NCBI GenBank assembly: GCA_001600175.1
Contig: BCJC01000005.1
Location: 848,471-912,470, forward strand
Length of the DNA: 64,000 nt
Reading direction: 5' to 3'
Source: Erythrobasidium yunnanense
Lineage: Eukaryota > Basidiomycota > Cystobasidiomycetes > Erythrobasidiales > Erythrobasidiaceae
Shown here piece by piece: positions 8,133 through 58,473 of this stretch. Below the pieces are notes generated by a model. It was not told the origin of the DNA. It searched no databases and worked only from the letters and a program-made list of their open reading frames with translations. How positions within the stretch are numbered: position 1 is the stretch's first letter; each line of letters starts with the position of its first letter. Both the position numbers and the translations under genes were made by a program.

Positions 8133-9577
8133 CTTGACAAAGTTTTTCTGAGCGGGAGGTGTGTCCGAGTCTGATGGACGAAGATCCGCTGACGCTATCG
8201 TTAAATCAAGAGGTGACCAGGAACTTGGTAGCGAATTAGCTTTTATGGAGCATCTCCTAGTTTGCTCAAAGGTAAGCAGAAGACCATTGTAGTGTATCTG
8301 TCCCCTTTCACTACCTCGGATAGCCGAGCCCTTCTGTTCTTCCGGTTTTATGATCTTGATCCATTCCTTGTAAACGTCTACACTTTGCCTACTCAGCGAG
8401 CATGTACGCTGAATGTGAGCGGGACCAACCTTCACATTCGCACTTGATCCGCTCTACATGCGGGAGCCTTTGATGAGCAGAGCCTTTGTAGAAGCTGTGC
8501 TGTTGTGAGCGTAGAGGTAGTGACCCTACCACTCTGCTGTTTGCCTATCATCCACCACATACACAACAAGCACACTTAGTATATTCAATGACTACAGTTT
8601 GCCTTGTGAAGGCGATGTGAGAGCAAGTACCTCTTACACTGAGAGTTGTGCAGCGACCTCTTGGCTTTGTTTCGGCCCCAATAGGAAATGATCTGCTTGA
8701 CGAAGTATGCTGTCTGTTCGGCGGGCAGAAAGCTGCTTGCATCGCCCCTCTGGTCCAAGCGTCGTACATGAAGCATCGATGGCTACAGTTCCCGCAACTA
8801 CATCAAGCCTCCGTTGTCGAGATAGAGACGCCAGGCAGTACAGCTGAGCCCAAGGTATTTAGCAGAAGTGATAACCGGGTCGTCTGCGGAAGGTGCTAAG
8901 GGCAGCAGCAATTGCGAATGGAAAAGGGAGCTGCGCCATTATATCTCTGACACAACGCAGAATATAAAGGAGTTTGGCTTCGCTCGCTTTCGTCTTCGTA
9001 CGGTAAAATCTGGATGATTTCGGCTTGCTCTTCAAGTGACTTGACTAGCAGGACGTATAAACAGCAAAGTCGACATAGAGGATGAAGAGCGAAAAGTGGT
9101 CAGAATGTTCAAGCTGAGCTTTCGCAGATCTAAGCGGATCAGCCAGTCATGCACTCATGCATGAACGAGATGGATTTGAGCGGAGAAGAAGGAGCAGAGC
9201 AGCCGAGATTTCGCACAGACTGTCAGCGCGCATCAGCAATCATCAGCATCTATCATCAGCGAACATGTCACATCAGCTGCTCCCTTCCAATTGTTTCATT
9301 CCAACCAGCAAACAGCGACAAACACTGACGATCAGGATGAGGGGACGGATCCACGCCCAGCCGGCCCAAACGCGCACTTGCTGACGATTAGCATGCGCTT
9401 GGATCCCTTTTCCTTTTGGCCACTCGCGCAGTCTACTTCCCTCCCCTTTTTCCCTTTCCAACCTCACCAACTCTGGAGTTGTCCCCTGTCGACCAATTCT
9501 TTGCAACTTCGCTCACATTCACTCTCTTTCTGACCAATTTCATCCATCAACCTCGATCCATCTCCTGTAGTTCAACG
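8133..9577. other. gene-free stretch upstream of the GPI-protein gene
   Basis: Only short conflicting ORFs. 9400-9575 is pyrimidine-rich (runs of C and T) directly before the ATG at 9578, typical of a fungal promoter or 5' leader. Nothing else is recognisable. Confidence 0.45.
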
Positions 9578-10627
9578 ATGCCCTCGTTCATCCTCACCGC
9601 TGCATCCCTCCTCGCTGCCGCAAGCGCCGCTCTCGCACTCAAGATTGAGTCGCCCCCATCGTGAGTGGCCGTCGCCGTCAATCTATCACTCTTACAGCGC
9701 GTATTGATGCTCTGTTGTCGCTGCCAGGATCATCCAAGGCCAAGTAAGCTTCGAGCGAGCCAGCGAGGAGGGGAGGTCGGTGCGCGTCCGCTGACTTTGA
9801 TTGGAATTGCAGCCCGTACAGATTGCCTGGTCTGAAGGAGCAGCTGGCGACATCTTCCTATCTGTCATTCCAGGTGGAGACCCATCTGCAGCAGCCGTAA
9901 GTCCAGCCACTCTCGCTGTTGTCGTAGACCACGCTCAGTCCTCCTTTGTTTCGGTCACCAGCTCGTATCGTTCCCTACTCAGAATGGCGCATCTGGTACC
10001 TTCACCTGGTTAGTCGACAGATATCAGTATTTTGACTACATGCTAATTCTTGGTGTTTGTCCAGGACCCCCGAGCTCGACCCCGGTACTTCCATCACCCT
10101 CAAGGCCGTAGACAGCACTGTGCGCATACTCCCACTCACTCTTCATACCATATCACTAATTCGCTTCATTCGGACAGGGTGTAAACGCCTACTCATCCCC
10201 CGTCACCATCCAAGCTGGAGCAGGAGGTGCTGCACCCGCCCCTGGTGGAAGCAGCTCTGCTGCCTCTTCCGCCGCAACTAGTGCTTCGTCAGCCGCTTCT
10301 TCAGCTGCTTCAGGGGCCACTTCGACCGTCTCTAGCGCCGCTTCGTCCGCTTCGTCAGCCGCTACCAACAGAGTCAGCAGCGCGTGAGTCCCTTCTCCCC
10401 TTCTCCCACTCCTCTTCTTATGAAACACATACTGACTCGATTGTGCGATTCACAGCGTATCCGGTGCCAGCTCAGTCGCTTCATCTCTCGGATCAGCCAT
10501 CACAAGCGCTGGCGGAGCAGCTACCTCAGCAGTTGGAAACGCCGGAAACAACGGTGCTGGATACGTCAACCAAGTCGCTTTCTCGGCCGTACTCGGTGTC
10601 GCTGGGCTGGCTGTCTTGCTCGCTTAG
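9578..10627 (+). CDS. secreted GPI-anchored Ser/Ala-rich protein with Kre9/Knh1-type domain
   Basis: Probably a cell-surface or wall protein. Exons are 9578-9660, 9728-9743 (16 nt), 9813-9896, 9962-10008, 10065-10119, 10178-10383 and 10456-10627. The product begins with a signal peptide (MPSFILTAASLLAAASAALA). An Ig-like Kre9/Knh1 N-terminal domain follows (IESPPSIIQGQPVQIAW, GDIFLSVIPGG, GASGTFTWTPELDPGTSITL). After that comes a long Ser/Ala/Thr-rich stalk and a hydrophobic tail (VAFSAVLGVAGLAVLLA) ending at the stop, as expected for GPI addition. All exon joins keep frame, and both sides of the 16-nt exon complete the domain. Members of this family are widespread in fungi and often abundant at the surface. 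Which exact wall role it has cannot be said. Confidence 0.9.
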
Positions 10628-20624: not shown

Positions 20625-20889
20625 TTATGCGATGATACACTGCGGAAGAGGGCCGATTGCTCTTCAGCTTCCAAAGTCGCTTCCCAAGTACGAGACAACG
20701 ACCTACGAAACAATCGACAGTCTTATCCTCGCACTCTCTGTTGTGGTGCACGGCGTGTGCTGCTAAATCTCGCTCAATAGGCGCTGATCGTCTCTTAATG
20801 CCGGATGCAGGCTGAGCGTTGGGCAAGGCATTGACTGCTGATGCTACCACCAAAGTAGCGACAGCGATGAGCAGAGGTGTGGGCTTCAT
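20625..20889 (-). CDS. small secreted precursor, possible divergent member of the peptide cluster
   Basis: The product starts MKPTPLLIAVATLVVASAVNA, a clear signal peptide, and contains a dibasic IKRR site and a two-Cys end (NRECEDKTVDCF). It shares strand, size, the MKP start and a Cys pair before a possible donor with the two genes at 21192 and 22069. Two readings are possible. Unspliced, the ORF continues to 20542 and includes LGKR followed by LWKLKSNRPSS. Spliced (20889-20707 joined to 20639-20625, with a pyrimidine-rich acceptor), it ends CIIA, which happens to look like a CaaX box. A CaaX end and a signal peptide rarely occur together, so the similarity to basidiomycete pheromones may be chance. 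Confidence 0.45.
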
Positions 20890-21191: not shown

Positions 21192-21445
21192 TCAATGGTC
21201 CCAGCAGCGGATACTGCTTCCCCGCTTCTCTAGCGGAGTATCGTCAATCTAGCACGACATTCAGTAATGGTCCCGTCACTCTAAAGCACCCCGAAACAGC
21301 TTACCGGGCAGGGGTCTTGATTGCATTTGACGACTTTCTTAACTGAACTATCGCCAGATAATTCGATGTCTCTAGGTACAGCAGCAGCGTCCGTTGATGC
21401 AGCTAGGACGGCAGCGGCAGTGATTATGATAGCTCCAGGCTTCAT
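21192..21445 (-). CDS. secreted Kex2-type peptide precursor, copy 1
   Basis: Exons 21445-21305 and 21248-21192 join in phase 0 across a 56-nt GT-AG intron, giving 65 residues. In order: signal peptide MKPGAIIITAAAVLAAS, a short acidic pro-region, a two-Cys segment CNQDPCP, then DDTPLEKR and a nine-residue tail GSSIRCWDH. Kex2-type proteases cut after KR, so the tail is the likely released product. The neighbour at 22069-22336 has the same exon layout and motifs. The first exon read alone runs on into the intron and gives a wrong C-terminus. The function is unknown: peptide signal, RiPP-like core or effector are all possible. No modifying-enzyme gene is evident nearby. Confidence 0.72.
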
Positions 21446-22068
21446 GTCGATGTAGTGGCAGCTATAAGTGGAAGTTGTTTGTGATGAAGGATAAAGAAAG
21501 CAGACGGGCCCAGATGACATCGAGTGACCCATGCCAGAATAGATTGACGGCATCTCCCCATAGATTAATCGGAAGTCATGAGATGCCTATTATACCAGCA
21601 ATTCCCTGGCAGAAGTTGGTGACCAGCTGTGATACGAATAGCAGCCGGAAGAGCAGAGAGCAGGTCAGCTTCCGATCGTTATCGGACAAGACACGCAAAG
21701 GTTGTTATTGTTGTCGGAGCACATGCATATTTTCAAGAGGACTGAGGCATAAGTATGTGTTTGCTCAGACATGTCGTTACCTGCGAAGAGAAGAACCCAT
21801 CTTCACGTTGCAGTTTTAGCAGGGCTACCATTCAGAGAGGCTACTTGACGGAGACCCACGAATCTTAGCAATGTGTGATCCTGGAGTGTGGATCTGAACC
21901 GACTTCAGTTGGCATAAGACTCTGGCCGCTGGAACCACCACTGGGTAAGAGACAGCTCCATTGGGTACGGGGCCTAAACGAGGTGGAGATTGAGTCTGTA
22001 AGCAGAAGATACACGAGACATACTAGTTTCAGGCTCAGGAGAACAGCAACCCAGTGAATCGGCCTAGC

Positions 22069-22336
22069 TCAAGCGTTCCAGCAGCGTATGCCACCTCCGC
22101 CTCTTCGCTTCTCGAGCGGGATATCGTCCATCTGTTAAGGGAAGGTTCAGTAACGTACTCCAAGCGATCATCTCGGTGAGACATACTGGGCAGGGGTCCT
22201 GAATACAGTTGATAACGGGATCTCTCTTTACAAGGGCATCGGCTGACAATCCAAGGTCTTGAGGAACAGCAGCGGCATTCGCTGGGGATGCAGCTAGGAC
22301 AGCAGCTGCAGTAACGATGATAGCTCCAGGCTTCAT
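22069..22336 (-). CDS. secreted Kex2-type peptide precursor, copy 2
   Basis: Exons 22336-22187 and 22131-22069 join in phase 0 across a 55-nt GT-AG intron, giving 70 residues. Signal peptide MKPGAIIVTAAAVLAASPANA is followed by a pro-region with a dibasic site (LVKR) and the two-Cys segment CIQDPCP. MDDIPLEKR and the tail RGGGGIRCWNA close the protein. Compared with copy 1, the signal peptide, DPCP, DD.PLEKR and IRCW are conserved, while the residues around IRCW differ. That pattern fits a conserved leader with a diversifying core peptide. The middle segment could also be released, since it lies between two KR sites. Function unknown. Confidence 0.74.
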
Positions 22337-26667: not shown

Positions 26668-26987
26668 CGGACACCAAACATGATGACGATCCACTGACCG
26701 TCGGGTTAGGCAACCGATTGTCAGAAGTATCCCGCCAAAGCTCACACTGGAATACGGAGCCTAGGCGCATGTGACCAAACGTCCTCCGCCCGTCTTCCAG
26801 CGTTCCATCCTGTTGACCAAAGGACTCCCTATACTGACCAAACATACTCATAATAGGGGTTACAAGTGCTTATACTATGGATCATCTCAGTCTTCAGCTG
26901 CCCTTCACTCTATTCTACGCCGCCATCGGGATCTACCGCTATTCGAAAGCAGAAACTCCCTTGAAAAAACGCTTCGCACAAACCACC

Positions 26988-28935: not shown

Positions 28936-30476
28936 ATGGATACCGTCTATCCTGTGCACTCCTTTGATAGCGCCATGTTCAATCGACAATTCAGAGTACT
29001 AATAGGCCTTCAATTTGCGAACGCGCTCGACCCCGAGCGCTTGGAGAGCTCGCTGAACAAGCTTCTCACCGCCGATGAAGACTGGCTGAAATTAACCGGA
29101 AGGCTCAGAATGAACAAAGTAAGTACTCCTACTCCGGCAGGTAGAGCGCCGTTGACAAGTTGTTCAATTGCAGGACAAGACGCTGGAGCTCCACATTCCC
29201 AGCAGCTTCTCGGTCGCAAGACCTGCCGTACGATTCTCACTGGAGACGCATCCCTATCCACTGGCAGAGAGTCCCCTAGCCGAGTTCCTGCCAGAGCCAA
29301 GCGAAGAAATCCGAGTTACTGTCGACCCGGAAAGATATCGACCCCTGTACCAGAGCAAGGATATTCCCCAAAGCTTTCAAGCTTACCTCGAAGGCGATGT
29401 TCCTGTTCTCACAGTGCATCTGACATGCTTCACGGATGCCACTTTCATTGGCGTCTTATTGCCTCACGTCATTGCGGATGCAGCTAGCTTCGGTCTCTTC
29501 TTTCAAGCTTGGGCAGATGTTCTCAACGGGAAACCAGCGCCAAAGCTTGTATCTTACAAGGAAGACAGGATGGCTCAATCTGCGATAGTAGTCAAGAAGG
29601 GAGATACTCCTGCTATAGTTGAGAAATTCGCCTTGCCTTGGCTACAGGAGATGATCTTCATCTTCTGGGTACTTGTCAACATTATCCGCCAGTGGCATAT
29701 CAAGATCGTCGATATATACATACCTGCTAAGGCTATCCGCAAATGGAGGGAGGAATGCATGGCTGAACTCGGAGGAGCATGGGTTAGCGAAGGAGATGTG
29801 CTTACTGCTTGGCTGATCCAGGTGCATCGTTTTAACGGGACTATAGTACGGCACAACTAACTATTTGTGGCCTGTAGCGCCGCATGCCGAATCTCCGCAA
29901 GGATATATCAGCCTGGATCATAGCTGACGTCCGAGGAAGACTTCCTCTGGTCCCGAAGAACTACTTCGGAAACGCTGTGCTGCCCACCATAGCATATCTG
30001 AAGGAACGCCAAAGCGTCGCACAGATCGCGCGCGCAATCCGGAACACTATAGTAACTCAGACGAGCCCTGAAGAGCTTGGGAAAGCAATTAATTTCGCAA
30101 ACCGCTATAGAAAGGCTAGGGGAAGAGACGGTGTGATTGCTGTGGCTGGTACAGGTAAGTTCGGATGCTTTAAACTGCTCATTCGAACGATATTGAGGTG
30201 TTCTTTGATCTCGTAGAACCGTATGTCTTGACCAACTGGGTCAGAGCATCTTTGCTATCAGCGGACTTCAGAGGAGCTCTACCCGACGAAGTCCGTAACA
30301 ATTCTGGAGCTGTTCTCCCAGTCGGGGCACACAGGCTGGGCTTTGCCGCCATTCCTGTGCGAAACATGGGTTGGATCATGTATAAGGACCGGAAGGGAGG
30401 CTACCTGATCCAATGTCAAGTGCCTGCATCGGATTTCGACAGGTTTCAGGCGGATGTGATGGCGTCGGGCAAATAG
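28936..30476 (+). CDS. BAHD-like acyltransferase, copy 2
   Basis: CoA-dependent acyltransferase of the family that includes BAHD enzymes and trichothecene acetyltransferase. Exons are 28936-29118, 29174-29821, 29878-30154 and 30217-30476. The product is about 455 residues. Motifs are MDTVYPVHSFD at the start, TADEDWLKLTGRLR, the catalytic PHVIADAAS (HxxxD), and near the C-terminus LTNWVRASLLSADFRGAL in the place where BAHD enzymes carry DFGWG. The shared structural block YIPAKAIRKWREE is intact. The acyl acceptor cannot be inferred. The intron at 30155-30216 is absent from copies 1 and 3. No polyketide or peptide synthetase lies nearby. Confidence 0.85.
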
Positions 30477-30809: not shown

Positions 30810-32389
30810 ATGGACGTCATCTATCCTATACACAGCTTTGACGGGACGAGTGTATTAGCCAAATTCGGTGTACTCTGCGCGCTCGAATTCGCAGAGGCCT
30901 TGGATTCTGCACGTCTGGAGGCAGCTCTCAACAAGCTCCTGACTTCGGATGAGGACTGGCTCAAGTGGACCGGAAGGCTTCGAAGGAACAAGGTAAGCAT
31001 ACTCGAAGATGTATGAAGACGAACGTGAAAATAGGAGTCAGGTACTAAGAGCAATATCTTGCATATTGACAGGATAACACGCTTGAGCTGCACATTCCAC
31101 GTGAATTTACGGCTGCAAGACGTCCTGCTCGGTTCTCCGTTGCAGACTATCCTTACTCGCTGGCTGAGCATTCCGTAGCCAAACTACTACCACGCCAGAC
31201 CGAGAAGATCAGCGTCTACGAAGACCCTGAGAAGTACAGATTCTTATATCAAGATCAAGCGACACCGCAGCGCTTTAAAGCCTACCTCGATATCGAGCGC
31301 GATGAGCCCGTCCTTGCGGTACATGTCACGCGTTTCTCCGATGCAACATTCATTGGCGTGTCATTTCCTCATGTTATGGCAGATGCACCAGGAATATCGC
31401 TTCTGCTCAATGCCTGGGCAGACGTTCTGGCCGATAAGCCAATCCCGAAGCTTATCTCGTACAAAGAAGACAGAATGGCTCAAGTTTCGTTCGATAGTAA
31501 GGATAGAAACGCAGTGGGTATAGTAGAGAGCTTCGCCTTGTCCTGGTGGAGGGAGATGGTCTTCATCTTCTGGATGATCGTGTCGATTCTGCTCCAGTAC
31601 AATGTCGAGACGGTCAACATATATGTACCTGCGAAGGTTATACGCAAGTGGAGAGAGGATGCGATTGAAGAGATGTCTGGAGAATGGCTGAGCGAAAGCG
31701 ACGTGATCACGGCTTGGCTGATCCAGGTAAGCCTTGCAATCCGAAGAGATCGCGTTCAGACGGCTGACGTACATGCCATGCTGCAGCATCGTATGTCGAA
31801 TCTCAAGCGAGATGTATCGGCTTGGATCGTGGTCGATGTCCGCAAGAGGCTTCCTCAGGTGCCAGCCAACTACTCCGGTAACGCAACAATGCCTTTGGTG
31901 GTGCCCATTCTCAACAGGGACACGATGTCTATAGCGCAGGCCGCACACCAGATTCGAAAGAGCATAATCGCCCAAAGTACTCCGGAGGAACTTGTCAAAG
32001 AGATCAACTTCACCCAGAGATCCAGAAAAGCGAGAGGCAGAGACAGTGTCATTGCAGTGCCGGGGTCAGATTTCTACATAGTGACGAACTGGATTAGGCG
32101 AGTGCGATGCAGATCAAATGCACTTCTCCCCAGTACTGATCATTCGCCGAATACGTGTAGAGCCGGCCTCTTTTCTATCGATTTCAAAGGTGCTCTTCCT
32201 GGACCTCGACAGGAGCCTGTCTTTCCGATTTCAGGGTCTCCCATGGGGTTCGCAGAGCTTCCCGTCAGGAATGTTATGGTAATCGGGGGGAAGGACGTGC
32301 AGAGCGGCGGGTATCTGTTGCATTGTCAGGTCCCTCGTGCACAGTTGGAGAAGTTCAAAGCGGCCATACTCGCATCCGGTGAGATGTGA
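30810..32389 (+). CDS. BAHD-like acyltransferase, copy 3
   Basis: Exons are 30810-30992, 31073-31726, 31787-32097 and 32161-32389, about 458 residues. The layout matches copy 2: MDVIYPIHSFDG, TSDEDWLKWTGRLRRNK, catalytic PHVMADAPG (HxxxD), YVPAKVIRKWRED, then TNWIRAGLFSIDFKGALPGP. The last intron (32098-32160) has a GC donor (GCGAGT). It is 63 nt and stop-free, so retention would insert 21 residues without breaking frame. Splicing restores TNWIRAGL, aligned with copies 1 and 2, which supports removal. It is a tandem duplicate of the two preceding copies on the same strand. Confidence 0.85.
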
Positions 32390-47354: not shown

Positions 47355-48423
47355 TTAGTTGGCAACGCACTCCATCTTATTGGAGTCTAGCCAGTATCCC
47401 TCGCCGCAGCTGCCAATAACGCATTTGCCATGGACGCATCCGACCTTGTCCACACCCCTGATGATCGTGCAGTCTTCGCCTTCACCGAGGCTTAGGCATC
47501 CACCGCAAGACTCGCTAATAGATACAAAGAAGACGAAGTCAGTCGCATGGTCAATCTATGTCAGTAATGGAGACGCCTTACAGGGTAGCAGCCGTGTTGA
47601 TGCAGTCCCAACCTGACAGACCGTTCTCAAGAGGGCAGGCGGTAATCTCTGCACCGGGGATCTGAACGTTGATGCCGCAGACAGATGCGGCGGCTGGTCC
47701 GTACAAGGCGAAAGAGCTGTGGTCGTGAGGCAGACGCGCCCGAGCGGAGGCAGAAGGCCAGTTGGATGGCTTGCCGTCACCTCCGCTTGGAGCTGTGGTG
47801 TCGTCTCCGCCGCCGTTGGTCCCATCGCCGGGCTGCGAGCCGCCATTGTTTCCGCCGTCTGAGCCATCGTCACCACCCGTAGAGGGACTGTCTGGGTCGC
47901 TGGAGCCATGATCTCCCTTCTGAGGGTGCGAGGTTGGCTTCTCGCCGTGGTTCATCTGAGATGGACCCCAGGTCTTGCTAGGACCATGGTGCCATTGAGA
48001 AGGGCCGTGTGATGGACCATGAGATGGTCCATGTGGGTGAGGAGAAGGTAAGTTATGAGGAGGATTGTTGGGAGGGTGATCGCCCTTCTGGGGAGGCTGA
48101 GAAGGGTCGTTCGGGCCCTTGTGCCAGGGCGACGGGCTGGGCTTGCTGTGGTCGTTGTTGCGCTTCTCGTTGAGATGCTCATGGGGGTTCCACTGGTGAA
48201 GAAGGTGAGGAACTGTAAACAAAACCAGGCACATAATGTTTTGCATCAGTGAACGCGTTCAATATTGATAAGCATTCTGTTGACGCTTCAACTTCTCACC
48301 TTCAGTCTCGTTGGCAGCTGAAGTGGGCAGAACATCCCTACCCATCAAATTGCCTTGCAGGACGACCGAAGCGGAAGCGAATGCTGCATTGGCTGCTAGG
48401 AAAGCGATGCCGGAAATCTTCAT
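47355..48423 (-). CDS. secreted CPL1/PriA-like Cys-rich protein with Gly/Pro/His-rich linker
   Basis: Exons 48423-48300, 48212-47582 and 47514-47355 give about 304 residues. A signal peptide (MKISGIAFLAANAAFASASV) is followed by a long low-complexity linker. The linker is rich in Pro, His, Ser, Gly and Asp, including GPSHGPSHGPSQWHHGPS. The C-terminal region has the spaced Cys pattern of PriA/CPL1-like basidiomycete proteins (CPLENGLSGWDCINTA, LESCGGCLSLGEGEDCT, then GCVHGKCVIGSCGEGYW). CPL1 is a secreted virulence-linked protein in Cryptococcus and PriA is developmentally regulated in mushrooms. Those roles are family knowledge, not evidence for this gene. Splicing at 47582/47514 is needed to complete the Cys domain. 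Confidence 0.85.
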
Positions 48424-49567
48424 GTTGATGTGATACTGCTGTTGGTGTTGGAAATTGCGTCGAGATTGCTGTGTTTGTTTAGGGATATGCTCGTCGGTAG
48501 TGAGCGGACTATGTTGTGTGTTGAGGTAGGTGAAATGAGTGTGTTGTGCCGTGTGGGCGTGGGGGTGTCAACAAATGTATCTGTTGCGATTAGTGCTGAT
48601 AAAGAGTGTCGAGTGCCGTAGAGGCTGTATAGGGTTAGACCTGAGAGGAGAGGAGGAGGGGAGTTGCTGAAGGATTGAGGAGGAAGAGGTTGTCCAGCGA
48701 CTAGAGGGACGATGGGGAAAAGCGAATATTGATAGAGAAGAGGGAAAGGAAGTCAGTCAAGCGCAGCGCCAGCAGGACGGCCAAAACAAGTGCAGAGCCC
48801 TTATGATTTTCGGGCAGGCAGGCATGAGACTCGACGAACCTTGAGATCGCGTCAAGCTTAAGTGAAACGAGCATTCCTTACTCGATCTTATTGTTCGAAA
48901 AATAAACAACAAACAAAGACAGGCACGGGCGACTGTCATGATTGGATATAGCAGCCCCTGAGGTATGCGCTATGCAGCTAGTGAAACTGTCAATTTCCAT
49001 GTAAATCCTGAGCTTGTCCTCCAGGCTTCCGAGTGGTGCTTGTTCGGCGGGAGGATGAGGCATGCTGGCACCTTGACGCGTAAACATACGAGGTCCAGGG
49101 CGAGCATACGTTGGCGGAGGTAGAGCTATCTCTTCTGTTATTTGCGTGATGTTTCTGCGACAGCACGTCTGGGGAGCGGAAGACCTGCTGTATCAGCTTG
49201 GCCTGCATGCTGTTCGAATGGATCTGAAGGCTGCCGCTGTGAGGTAAACTGGCAAAGTCGTAGATGCAAAGGCTGTACAGCGGAAGTCGACGGCAGCGAC
49301 AACGATTGTCGATGGTAGATGGGAAGAGCGACTTTGGCCGTTGAATTCGCGAAAGAGCTTCGGCGCGTTGAGACAAGCTCGTTACATGGAGCCTGTCACT
49401 GACAAACTGCGTTCCTTACTCTGACACATGAATGTACACAGCAGTACGATACATCAATTGTTTTGCGTGGATGACAGCTGAACGATGAGGCCATGTCTAG
49501 ACGATTTACAAACCCGTGCGCTGAGCTAATGCTACAAATGATGACAGAGGTCCTGAACATGATGACT
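48424..49567. other. gene-free stretch upstream of the CPL1-like gene
   Basis: 1.1 kb. The first 300 bp, just before the CPL1-like start, are GT-rich on the plus strand. Short ORFs in 48990-49376 lack any recognised motif. The far end is the 3' region of elongin C. Confidence 0.45.
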
Positions 49568-54205: not shown

Positions 54206-54583
54206 CTGAGATGTGAGAGGTCGAGCAGACGCGAACCGCAAGATTACAGGTTGGCTTTTACCATTTCGCAGGAGCCTTTAAAGAGAATACAACAGCTGAA
54301 CACTCGTATGAAGACCTAGTCCATGCTATACTAGCCCGAATGAACGACGAAACGGCCGCAACTTTCCTTGCTATCCTGGTCGAGTTGGCCGTAATCCTTT
54401 GCATCCCCAGCAGCTTCAGAAGGGCTAAGCAAGTCGCAAGTCTCTGCTGTATGATTTGCAATGCCGCCCGTTGTTCAAAGTCGATGCGGTGCTGTCTGTC
54501 CCTTCAAGCTTCAGCTGCCTGGCTCCTCCCTGCTTTTGCTCAGTAACAAGAGCCTACTTGCAGTCGCACTCCACACAGCCAGC
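54206..54583. promoter_or_regulatory. divergent promoter region, AP-1 mu and tandem family copy 1
   Basis: 378 bp between opposite start codons. An in-frame upstream ATG at 54461 would add 41 residues to copy 1; I prefer 54584 because the extension has no counterpart in copies 2 and 3. Confidence 0.4.
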
Positions 54584-55291
54584 ATGAACTCGTCGAAGCA
54601 ACCTGTCGACCCTGATCGCGATGTCCCCTTCCTCCGCTCTGTCGCCTACCAGAACTTTGCGACCAACACCGCTAGCGCTGGATCGGAAAAGGTGCTCTGC
54701 GTATGGGCAGCTCCCAGAGATACTCAACGAATACACAAGCCTCAGCGATTTGACCTGTATGACCTGGCCAAGAACAGCGAGATCGGAATCAACTTCTACC
54801 ACAATGTCGTCTTCAGATTACAAGCACTCGAGCAGGCTAGTAAGGAACACACCAAGGCAATCATGGACGGTGTAAGCGATCCTGGAGGCTCTCGTTCGCC
54901 AAAATTTCAGGTCGACGTCAGAAGAGACGCACTCAGCTACTACATCCGAGGCTGGAGCATCCGGCCGGAAGTAAGCAAGATCTTCTCTGCTGATCCTATA
55001 TCTGGGCAAAGAAGACCTATCAGCACTTACAGAATGGTCCTCGTGCCATCGATTCCATACCTTCTCACTTACAGCAAGAACTTCGAGGAGGAGCATGGCA
55101 TCGCAACACCTCCATATGATTTGAGTAGACGCGCTCATAGTCCAAAGCCGCTGTCTGAGAGCCCATCGCCAGTGGCATCTCGCAAAACCTCAATCAAGTC
55201 TCGAAATCCGTCAGTAGGTTCGCATGCATCCTCAGGTCGCAGGAAATCATCCTCTGGAGGAAGTACGCCCTCCAATACAGTTCTATCTTAA
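54584..55291 (+). CDS. tandem intronless family, copy 1, unrecognised
   Basis: A single open frame of 235 residues. It shares three blocks with the next two genes. The first is an N-terminal strand, VLCVWAAPRDTQRI. The second is FDLYDLAKNSEIGINFYHNV, followed by a helix. The third is YYIRGWSIRPEVSKIF with RPISTYRMVLVP. The C-terminal 70 residues are Ser/Arg/Lys-rich and probably disordered (SRKTSIKSRNPSVGSHASSG). No signal peptide, membrane segment or known domain is seen. Its lack of introns stands out beside neighbours with five to nine. Confidence 0.75.
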   Translation: MNSSKQPVDPDRDVPFLRSVAYQNFATNTASAGSEKVLCVWAAPRDTQRIHKPQRFDLYDLAKNSEIGINFYHNVVFRLQALEQASKEHTKAIMDGVSDPGGSRSPKFQVDVRRDALSYYIRGWSIRPEVSKIFSADPISGQRRPISTYRMVLVPSIPYLLTYSKNFEEEHGIATPPYDLSRRAHSPKPLSESPSPVASRKTSIKSRNPSVGSHASSGRRKSSSGGSTPSNTVLS

Positions 55292-55619
55292 ACAGGGATT
55301 CTGCTGCAGATGCGAAGGGTATGATGATCGGAGGTGGTCAGTAGTTTCCGTTTGACGTGCGACCAAGCTGCTGATCTTCCATCGCAATCAGATCGCTGTA
55401 TACCACTATATTCTCCAAAGCGCTGTGACGGTCTATGCTTCCTGCTTGGACTCTGTACTTGAGCCGGGTGCACACACCAATAAAAGGGATTCGACGCCTT
55501 TGAGCTGAGGACGCCTTTCTTCCGGGCCTCTGAGCATGATCAAGCGTAGTGCAGCAGCGCTGTTTCTATCTCTGACCACCCAAACGCAAGTATCAACAAG
55601 ATTCTAAAGGTAATTCACC

Positions 55620-56249
55620 ATGACGAGCAATAACTCACAGCATCCTGTCCTCTATTCTACCGACAGCATCATGATATATAAGGCAGCCTTCGAAGAGATA
55701 ACCTTACGCAGCAAGAGACCAGAGAGTTGGCGTTCAGCTCAAGTTCTGTTCGTATCTGTTCATGATGCCACTGCGCGGGACAAAGGGCTGCCATCTGACA
55801 AGTACGACCTCTTCGAGCTCGCCAAACGAAGTTCCTGCGGTGTCGCCCTATACTATGCAGTAGTAGCCAAGCTACAGGACATCAAGGACGCATGGGACGA
55901 CGCTGGCCAGCACGCCCGCTACAACAGACACTCGGAATACGAGGTCCGAAGCAACGACTACAGCACCAATAAGCAAGAATTCGACAAATGGATAAGGAGA
56001 TGGGGCATTCAAACCTCCTTCGTGAAGCACATGCCTGTCGGCGGCGCCATCTGCAGCACGGAGACTGTCATCACGCCTAGAGACGACACCGTCATGGCAA
56101 CCTTGCAGCCGTACCGCACACCCTCCAAGCCGGACAGACGAAGTAGCAGCGTCTCACAGAAGTCAGCCGCAGGGAATGAACGTCGCAGAAGCTCCGCTGT
56201 CAGCACTCAGTCAAACAGGAGGGGCAGTGAAGGGGGAGTGCTCCTGTAA
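55620..56249 (+). CDS. tandem intronless family, copy 2, unrecognised
   Basis: A single open frame of 209 residues. Conserved blocks: VLFVSVHDATARDKG, YDLFELAKRSSCGVALYYAV, then FDKWIRRWGIQTSF with STETVITPRDDTVMATLQPY. The tail is again short, basic and Ser-rich (RRSSSVSQKSAAGNERRRSS). Similarity to copies 1 and 3 is limited to the blocks, so the copies have diverged strongly although they lie only a few hundred base pairs apart. Function unknown. It begins 328 bp after copy 1's stop, so separate transcription is likely. Confidence 0.75.
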   Translation: MTSNNSQHPVLYSTDSIMIYKAAFEEITLRSKRPESWRSAQVLFVSVHDATARDKGLPSDKYDLFELAKRSSCGVALYYAVVAKLQDIKDAWDDAGQHARYNRHSEYEVRSNDYSTNKQEFDKWIRRWGIQTSFVKHMPVGGAICSTETVITPRDDTVMATLQPYRTPSKPDRRSSSVSQKSAAGNERRRSSAVSTQSNRRGSEGGVLL

Positions 56250-56535
56250 TACCCCTGTCAGAAAGATGCTCGACTGCCGACTGACTGATGAATGCACTGT
56301 TACCCTCTGACGCACTTTCGCACCTACTCCTAAATCGCTACTGCATACTGATCTGACCTCCTTTGACCAGTGACGTCGGACCTTTACCACTTTCAGGACA
56401 GAGCCTTTGTTCACTGACCTCGTTGCATCTCCAGGCTACCTCGAGCTTGTGTTGTTGTCTTTCGGACCTCGCCAGCACAAGTGCATAGAGAAGTACCAAG
56501 ATAAAGCACAATCAAATCGATCAGAAGGCTTCGCA

Positions 56536-57114
56536 ATGAGCAAGACCAGTGCAAGAATTGTGAGAGCAGGGAGTGAAGTAGAAAAGGTTGCATCTGGCCG
56601 CAACGCAACTCTGAAGTACTACGTCTGGATCTCGGCTAAAGAAGCTGAGGCAAAGGGCTTCGTAGCAAGGAGATTTGAATTATGGACTACCGCTGAGCGA
56701 AGTCCATGCGGCACGGCATTCTACAACACGGTGCTGGACAAGCTCCGAGCTATGGACGAGACCAAGTTTCCCCTCACATCTGATGAACGAAAACAAACGG
56801 CAGTCAGTCGCCGCAACATGGGAAAGGAATTCTCCGAATGGCTGGGCCGGTGGGCGATTGAGCAGACAGTCACCATTGCCAATGGCCAGCCTAGTCTCAA
56901 GCGCGAGACAGTGATCATCGCACGCAATCCGGAGGCCATGGCGACCCTTATCAAGTACCGCCGACGAAGCTCAGTAGTGGCACAACTTGTCAGCAGGAGA
57001 ATATCTTCGTCAGGGTCGAGTAATGCCCCCATTGGCAATCAGCCTACAGCGCCTCCGGCTTTCAAGGTCAAGCGTGCCAGCGTTGTGAGACTACCCGTGG
57101 CAGTTAGATCATAA
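56536..57114 (+). CDS. tandem intronless family, copy 3, unrecognised
   Basis: A single open frame; I start it at the internal Met at 56536 (MSKTSARIVRAG), giving 192 residues, because the upstream part from 56407 has no match in the other copies. Blocks: YYVWISAKEAEAKG, FELWTTAERSPCGTAFYNTV, then FSEWLGRWAIEQTV and RETVIIARNPEAMATLIKYR, followed by RRRSS. The last block aligns with copy 2 (ETVI, then MAT, then a Tyr-Arg pair). The tail is Ser/Pro-rich. Function unknown; the conserved G/R-W pair (RGW, RRW, GRW) is the best family signature. Confidence 0.75.
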   Translation: MSKTSARIVRAGSEVEKVASGRNATLKYYVWISAKEAEAKGFVARRFELWTTAERSPCGTAFYNTVLDKLRAMDETKFPLTSDERKQTAVSRRNMGKEFSEWLGRWAIEQTVTIANGQPSLKRETVIIARNPEAMATLIKYRRRSSVVAQLVSRRISSSGSSNAPIGNQPTAPPAFKVKRASVVRLPVAVRS

Positions 57115-57272: not shown

Positions 57273-58473
57273 TTAGGTTCTATTTACGATCTTGAAGAGA
57301 GGAGTCGCCGACCGTGGTTCATCGAGGGAAGGCATGGAGGCAGCGTCGGGCAATTCCTGTACCATCGTCTTGTCGGAGCTGAAAGACCCTTGTGCTCTTC
57401 TGAAGAATGAAGGCTTCGACGCGCTTGTCCGGGAATTGTCGCTATGCAGTGGGAGGCTGTCCGATGTGAGTTTCACGTTTCGAGCGATGTCTCCCTTCAG
57501 ACTCAGGGCCAATCGCGAGATGAAGATGCTTGAGAAAACGGTACAGAGCAGGCCACCATTGCTGGGAACAGTTGGCATCCCGAGATGCTTGGTTGCTCTG
57601 ATGAGGGAAAAGGATCAGACCCGTGTCCAGTATTGGCAAGAGAGCCTTAACTCACGTCACCATGAAGCCGAGATTGATAGCATTCGCAGCTGTAGTACCG
57701 AAGATGTAGTAGGTGCCGTGTCGCAAGAAGATATCGATAAGCGGTGAACGGCTTGGGAGATCTGCAAGCTCTTTGCGGAGCTTATGGACTTTGTACACGC
57801 AAAGAAAGCTTGTGGTAAAATCGTAGGTGATGGGCATGATCTGGACAGGAACCTGTCAGTGAAGCATGAAACGGATCTACGATGGCCTCACGCAGTAGAT
57901 GTCCATCAAAGCATGAGGTGCAAAGGTCATGCACGGTCCACCATCAGAGAAGGGTAATGCCTGGACCTGAGTAGCCGCCAGTACGATGCTTCCGCCAAGT
58001 TGGATGGCCAACATCGGGGTGAGCAGATACAACACCCAGCGTTTGCGGCCCCACTGTCCATGAAAGTATTAGCGCTACACAGTTGGAAGGCTCGCAGACC
58101 TACGATAGCCCAGGTTCGTAGCAGCAACAAGGTCCCTCCGGCAGCCGAAATGCCGACGGGGATGAAAGTCTGCCATGGGATGAAGTATTTCTCGCACTTG
58201 TCTTGTGACCAATGAAGTCTGAAGCCAACCAGCACGAAGATGGATTCCAGTAGCATAAGATACCGATTGAAGAAGAAGGCAGCGTTGACGATCGACCACT
58301 TGGCCTGCCAGAAACGCCGGTACTCCTTGGGCAGGGTGATGAAGTAGTCGTAGTACAGGACGCTGTACAGCCTGTACATTGCGGACTCAGTGCCAAGTTC
58401 AAGCCATGAATGGTCCGACTTACATCAGGTAGTACGTAAGCATAAAACGCCTGTGTTCTTCGACGGACACCAT
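57273..58473 (-). CDS. multi-pass membrane protein, DUF6533 family
   Basis: Exons are 58473-58424, 58371-58104, 58053-57892, 57852-57656 and 57561-57273, about 320 residues. The N-terminal domain (LYSVLYYDYFITLPKEYRRF, then FFFNRYLMLLESIFVLVGF) matches the DUF6533 pattern of a Tyr-Asp-Tyr-rich helix followed by a Trp/Lys loop. Several more hydrophobic helices follow (TFIPVGISAAGGTLLLLRTW, RWVLYLLTPMLAIQLGGSIV), then LLCTVFSSIFISRLALSLKG, and a polar cytoplasmic tail. The family is expanded in basidiomycetes and has no established function. A plus-strand ORF overlapping 57292-57747 is its antisense shadow. Confidence 0.85.

Follow-up and report, generated by a model that had tools for sequence, protein, structure and literature searches.

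A tandem pair of putative secreted peptide precursors with IRCW tails in Erythrobasidium yunnanense and their comparison with Kex2-matured fungal peptides

In basidiomycetes, peptides that derive from Kex2-processed repeat proteins (KEPs) have reportedly been identified by mass spectrometry (PMC9769878). The KEPs, among which Rep1 of Ustilago maydis is cited, are defined in the available text of two sources by the presence of at least three repeats between processing sites (PMC7329392, PMC6339444), one of which specifies repeats of at least 8 residues and dibasic sites (PMC7329392). The 2019 survey, in the portion of it that is available, left the C-terminal fragment out of its first step and examined it only afterwards; the same portion reports alpha-type-pheromone-like KEPs in Basidiomycota, with one reported peptide ending in PCW, and describes the cores of the ascomycete alpha-type pheromone precursors as mostly repeated, their number ranging from one to 16 (PMC6339444). 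For Qsp1 of Cryptococcus, the accessible pages of its source describe extracellular maturation by the serine protease Pqp1 and uptake by Opt1 (PMC7537855), and the h-type hybrid pheromone precursor HPP1 is described, in the text at hand, as carrying three copies of a motif, one of which forms a C-terminal CaaX (PMC3068285). Since the two fungal surveys of Kex2 peptides, as set out in the available parts of these sources, require at least three repeats, they would overlook single-core precursors in which the core is encoded by a tiny last exon. Two adjacent genes of Erythrobasidium yunnanense, each with one candidate core in a short second exon, are described here and compared with these systems.

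The two genes, hereafter A and B, lie in tandem on the minus strand of the window, a term used here for the whole stretch of 64,000 nucleotides that was analysed and to which the positions refer unless a contig is named. Gene A extends over 22336-22069 and gene B over 21445-21192, with 623 bases between the end of A at 22069 and the start of B at 21445. Exon 1 of gene A (22187..22336), which reads MKPGAIIVTAAAVLAASPANAAAVPQDLGLSADALVKRDPVINCIQDPCP, encodes a predicted signal peptide, a propeptide and a Cys pair; it is followed by a phase 0 intron of 55 nt (22132..22186, GTATGT..AACAG) and by exon 2 (22069..22131), reading MDDIPLEKRRGGGGIRCWNA, which codes for MDDIPLEKR, the tail RGGGGIRCWNA and a stop. 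Gene B consists of exon 1 (21305..21445, MKPGAIIITAAAVLAASTDAAAVPRDIELSGDSSVKKVVKCNQDPCP), a phase 0 intron of 56 nt (21249..21304, GTAAGC..GCTAG) and exon 2 (21192..21248, IDDTPLEKRGSSIRCWDH) coding for IDDTPLEKR, the tail GSSIRCWDH and a stop. Common to both are a signal-peptide-like start, in which a charged beginning, a hydrophobic run and an A-x-A site can be read, a CxxxxC segment ending in DPCP, the DDxPLEKR segment and the short tail, and each precursor contains three Cys residues.

Splicing was assessed by scoring 55 models of A against 49 models of B, that is 2,695 pairs, each model being either unspliced or carrying a GT-AG intron of 40-120 nt. The proposed intron pair obtained the top score (214) among all the pairs, compared with 199 for the runner-up, 112 for the unspliced pair and a median of 84. 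Codon scores in frame for exon 1 amount to 11.1 bits in A and 12.3 bits in B, both above those of the other frames, and codon-usage scoring of the short second exons of A and B did not favour the coding frame. In the glycogen synthase gene located nearby, seven of the eight boundaries tried could be resolved, with introns of 58-75 nt and GTG donors throughout; the A and B introns are slightly shorter than these seven and have GTA instead of GTG donors, and the match in intron style is a fair one and not exact. Comparison of the sequences supports introns at the proposed sites, and the coordinates, introns and translations given in the preliminary description of the locus hold as they stood, its introns being those of the best-scoring splice pair.

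The spliced A and B proteins are 71% identical. Matches as a fraction of the alignment length are 0.74 and 0.73 in the two exons (0.50 and 0.50 after shuffling), 0.54 in the introns (shuffled 0.49), 0.57 in the 100 nt of 5' flank and 0.63 in the 100 nt of 3' flank (shuffled 0.51 for both), the likeness thus extending to part of the 3' flank. Between the genes, exon 1 differs by 9 nt and exon 2 by 6 nt in length, in each case a multiple of three, and the reading frame is kept. For the whole spliced pair, with 65 codons compared, dS is 0.88 and dN 0.17, giving a ratio of 0.19 (Fisher p ~1.5e-6 on fractional counts). Examined by part, the ratio is 0.12-0.14 in the signal, the propeptide and the part of exon 2 that runs to KR (0.12 in the last of these); the tails have a dN of 0.28 and a ratio of 0.27 on only 5.3 synonymous sites, too few to establish constraint on the tail alone, and IRCW carries zero nonsynonymous differences, likewise on few sites. 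Given the 71% identity and the dN/dS of 0.19, A and B look like tandem duplicates under purifying selection, both of them maintained as coding genes. As the two are copies of common descent within one genome, the conservation of KR and IRCW amounts to a single comparison. Each precursor has two dibasic places, VKR and EKR in A and VKK and EKR in B, the additional KR of A (VKRDP) corresponding to KK in B. Since the site at the tail of A reads KRR, the N-terminus of its peptide could be RGGGG or GGGG; the predicted monoisotopic masses of the free tails, as computed, are 1145.55 or 989.45 for A and 1059.46 for B.

KEPs depend on a Kex2 protease, and the genome has a Kex2-type open frame at about 1649304 on contig C7, read over part of the gene, in which a P_proprotein domain occurs together with the C-terminal end of a Peptidase_S8 domain. 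The reading preferred here, to which a probability of about 0.6 is assigned, is that A and B arose by tandem duplication and encode single-core prepropeptides, each of which would yield one C-terminal peptide of 9-11 residues. The signal peptide would take the precursor into the ER, the propeptide with its two Cys residues would probably fold or be held by a disulphide, and a Kex2-type protease would cut in the Golgi after LEKR, which we take to resemble a strong Kex2-type site. As the tail is the end of the protein, a second cut would not be needed, and the products for secretion would be RGGGGIRCWNA (or GGGGIRCWNA) from A and GSSIRCWDH from B. The distance from IRCW to the C-terminus is fixed in the two proteins while the linker after KR differs in length, so that a receptor or target would probably engage the conserved end; the invariant IRCW would be the likely active element, and the free Cys beside Trp may pair, dimerise or be modified. 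As for function, an extracellular peptide signal or a small fungal effector is the likeliest. The locus had already been interpreted as encoding pro-peptides for a Kex2-type enzyme, and the layout on which that interpretation was built is strengthened by the splice score and the purifying selection, and the genome has the Kex2-type frame; the release of the tail is a step that we infer. Should the tails indeed be released, the two genes provide a concrete pair of peptides to be sought by mass, and the combination of signal peptide, phase-0 intron, LEKR and short tail can serve as a search template for other genomes.

Retention of the tail is an unlikely but not negligible alternative, under which A and B would be small secreted three-Cys proteins with the larger part as the functional unit, and LEKR an exposed dibasic stretch or an unused one. 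The three Cys residues of each precursor are in keeping with it, as is the conservation of DPCP, the upstream Cys and DDxPLEKR to about the same extent as that of IRCW; the likeness of LEKR to a strong Kex2-type site and its preservation in the same position of both proteins ahead of variable linkers, together with the presence of the Kex2-type frame in the genome, argues instead for cleavage.

Comparison of the proposed prepropeptide genes with the described systems reveals likeness to several of them. A signal-peptide-like start, Kex2-type dibasic sites and, as predicted, short products are shared with KEPs, but a single IRCW core at the C-terminus takes the place of three or more repeats, and assignment to the KEPs was rejected on the ground of one core per precursor. 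The alpha-pheromone-like KEPs, so far as the available descriptions go, are likewise basidiomycete and secreted and have dibasic sites; their cores are repeated and some bear an STE13 signature, whereas in A and B the core is single and the residues after KR do not form an XA or XP start. As proposed for A and B, Qsp1 is one short peptide released from a secreted propeptide in a basidiomycete, and is set apart by its other maturing protease, a distinction drawn from the accessible description and not from sequence. Ascomycete alpha-type pheromone precursors resemble A and B in being secreted prepropeptides with KR sites; a search of the genome for STE2, the receptor partner in this comparison, gave no match, the search having had no positive control. 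The HPP1 precursors share Kex2 sites and a Cys at -4, and A and B differ from them in having one core and ends, CWNA and CWDH, that lack an aliphatic a2. In view of these differences, and of a search for UstYa that gave no match and had no positive control, the pair is regarded as similar to Kex2-matured peptides and is filed under none of these families.

Relatives of the pair were sought in several collections. Protein searches with spliced A (4 candidates) and with an alignment of A, B and a neighbouring putative gene C (321 candidates) returned none at E<=10 by a method that rests on common 5-residue words and that distant relatives could thus escape. In a check of fungal content, a glycogen synthase exon matched 3,842 of the 7,999 entries scored at E<=1e-30, and the 120 matches listed include Tilletia horrida (67%) and, equally close, the agaricomycete Cubamyces menziesii (67%), with identities of up to 75%; an affinity to Ustilaginomycotina would thus be guesswork. 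There were 0 matches for A in a PDB search and no Pfam match at E<=0.1 for A or C; a sub-threshold match of B with PF21302 (E 0.053; 14 bits, the cut-off being 27) was taken as chance. Against its own genome, exon 1 of A matched only A and B, and exon 2 of A matched itself and missed B, which indicates that the search is insensitive to such short exons. No family of this design was named in the literature, as judged mostly by titles and the beginnings of abstracts, and among the papers listed for the letters IRCW these occurred chiefly in circular-RNA names, which are uninformative on novelty. The earlier remark that no family with this tail had been described agrees with these limited searches of proteins, PDB, Pfam and literature, and A and B look like peptides of a kind already familiar in general terms, the pair itself being apparently unstudied.

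The rarity of the tail was examined with a pattern of IRCW, two residues and a stop, which in addition tolerates Ser in place of Arg and TGG in place of the stop. Two matches were present in the window against 0.05 expected, which speaks for the preferred reading, and 11 in the 20.9-Mb genome against 2 in the reversed control. True IRCW followed by two residues and a stop was found in six of these 11 (A, B, L016, L017, L018 and L019), and [KR]R or KK occurs within 10 residues upstream in frame in five (A, B, L015, L016 and L019). The MKPGAII exon precedes only A and B among the 11, the hydrophobic ATG starts upstream of L016 being unrelated to it; the three unrelated matches with a dibasic pair close upstream count against the preferred reading. 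DPCP followed by GTR occurs 7 times in the genome (4 times in the control); A and B are two of these, and by eye the other 5 have no signal-like exon upstream. One of the 5, at window position 57618, has ATGAAGCC shortly downstream, which on reading was taken for chance.

Putative gene C, a neighbour of A and B with a similar layout, is located at 20889-20625 on the minus strand. Its exon 1 (20707..20889, MKPTPLLIAVATLVVASAVNALPNAQPASGIKRRSAPIERDLAAHAVHHNRECEDKTVDCF) starts with ATG, MKP and a hydrophobic run and is followed by an intron of 67 nt (20706-20640, GTAGGT..CCGCAG) and by exon 2 (20639-20625), which codes for CIIA and a stop; a KRR site and a CxxxxxxC segment precede this end. The codon score is 12.0 bits in frame for exon 1 and -2.2 past the GTAGGT donor. 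Among 70 models of C ranked by summed score against A and B, the CIIA model is fifth, and the CIIA end occurs in five of the six best-scoring. On this predicted splice model, gene C may end in a canonical CaaX box. The whole of exon 1 gives z 3.17 (p 0.0045) against A and z 1.63 (p 0.065) against B, values that fall to z 1.48 and -0.03, respectively, when the signal part is left out; C resembles A somewhat and B weakly, and not clearly either of them once the signal part is removed. Against its own genome, exon 1 of C matched itself and, weakly (E 0.31), one other locus, L021, which was set aside after reading in three frames. A broader proposal, in which A and B are lineage-specific single-core secreted IRCW signal peptides and their neighbour C joins Kex2-type with prenyl-type maturation, is put forward as a rather improbable one; if true, it would mean that a family with IRCW in a small last exon has been missed by repeat-based and ORF-based surveys.

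It is very unlikely that the tails represent RiPP cores carrying modifications on Cys and Trp. The two residues are adjacent in the tail, and a conserved leader is combined with a partly variable core, as would suit such a product, but each precursor has a single core without repeats. Dikaritin-type RiPP precursors are encoded together with a UstYa protein (DUF3328, PF11807), and a genome search for UstYa gave 0 matches, as it did in the control genomes. In 17 window frames, Pfam recognised as enzymes a biotin carboxylase, glycogen synthase and, lying close together on the plus strand, two PF02458 acyltransferase frames (29156-29860 and 31070-32389), with no modifying enzyme recognised beyond the last two. 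The RiPP-like core, offered as one option in the preliminary description, is thus left without support by a UstYa search that had no positive control and by the 17 window frames.

The possibility that A and B are hybrid pheromone-like precursors, secreted, cut by Kex2 and ending in a CaaX-like box, is slighter still. In A and B, as in the CIIA model of C, a Cys stands at -4, the end CIIA prevails among the best-scoring models of C, and precursors combining Kex2 sites and CaaX exist in the Hypocreales, as described in the available text of PMC3068285. The ends of A and B, in which the a2 residue is not aliphatic, place them outside the basidiomycete CaaX pheromone precursors. The CaaX rule calls for C-aliphatic-aliphatic-X, and the farnesyltransferase, being cytosolic, would not be encountered by a precursor that enters the ER. 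Homology of C with A and B is not supported beyond the signal part, and the STE3 matches found in the genome sit on another contig. Sites like the pheromone response element of smuts, with one mismatch allowed, are not in excess in the window (13 against 11.6 expected), and none falls in 17-25 kb. That A and B are chance open frames or decaying duplicates without a product is highly improbable, for although no homologue was found in the searches made, the dN/dS of 0.19, the top rank of their splice pair among 2,695 and exon 1 codon scores of 11.1 (A) and 12.3 (B) bits above the other frames all oppose it.

The STE3 matches, together with the negative STE2 search, which had no positive control, point to a basidiomycete. 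They occur twice on their contig (C10, 57,881 bp), at 9109-9981 on the minus strand and 47901-48773 on the plus strand, in inverted symmetry about the centre. No palindrome is formed by the roughly 1 kb that flanks the centre on either hand (244 of 1,059 positions alike), and the symmetry may reflect an inverted duplication close to the contig ends or else an effect of assembly.

Elsewhere in the window, a signal-peptide-like start with KR is seen at 48423 on the minus strand and, beyond it on the same strand, a frame rich in HGPS repeats (47578-48258), the two perhaps belonging to one secreted repetitive protein. Three consecutive frames on the plus strand (54455-57114, with starts at 54455, 55614 and 56374) are alike by eye and are perhaps tandem paralogues, the first of them being without a Pfam match. 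Frames similar in appearance to the PF02458 acyltransferase pair start near 26877 and 28936.
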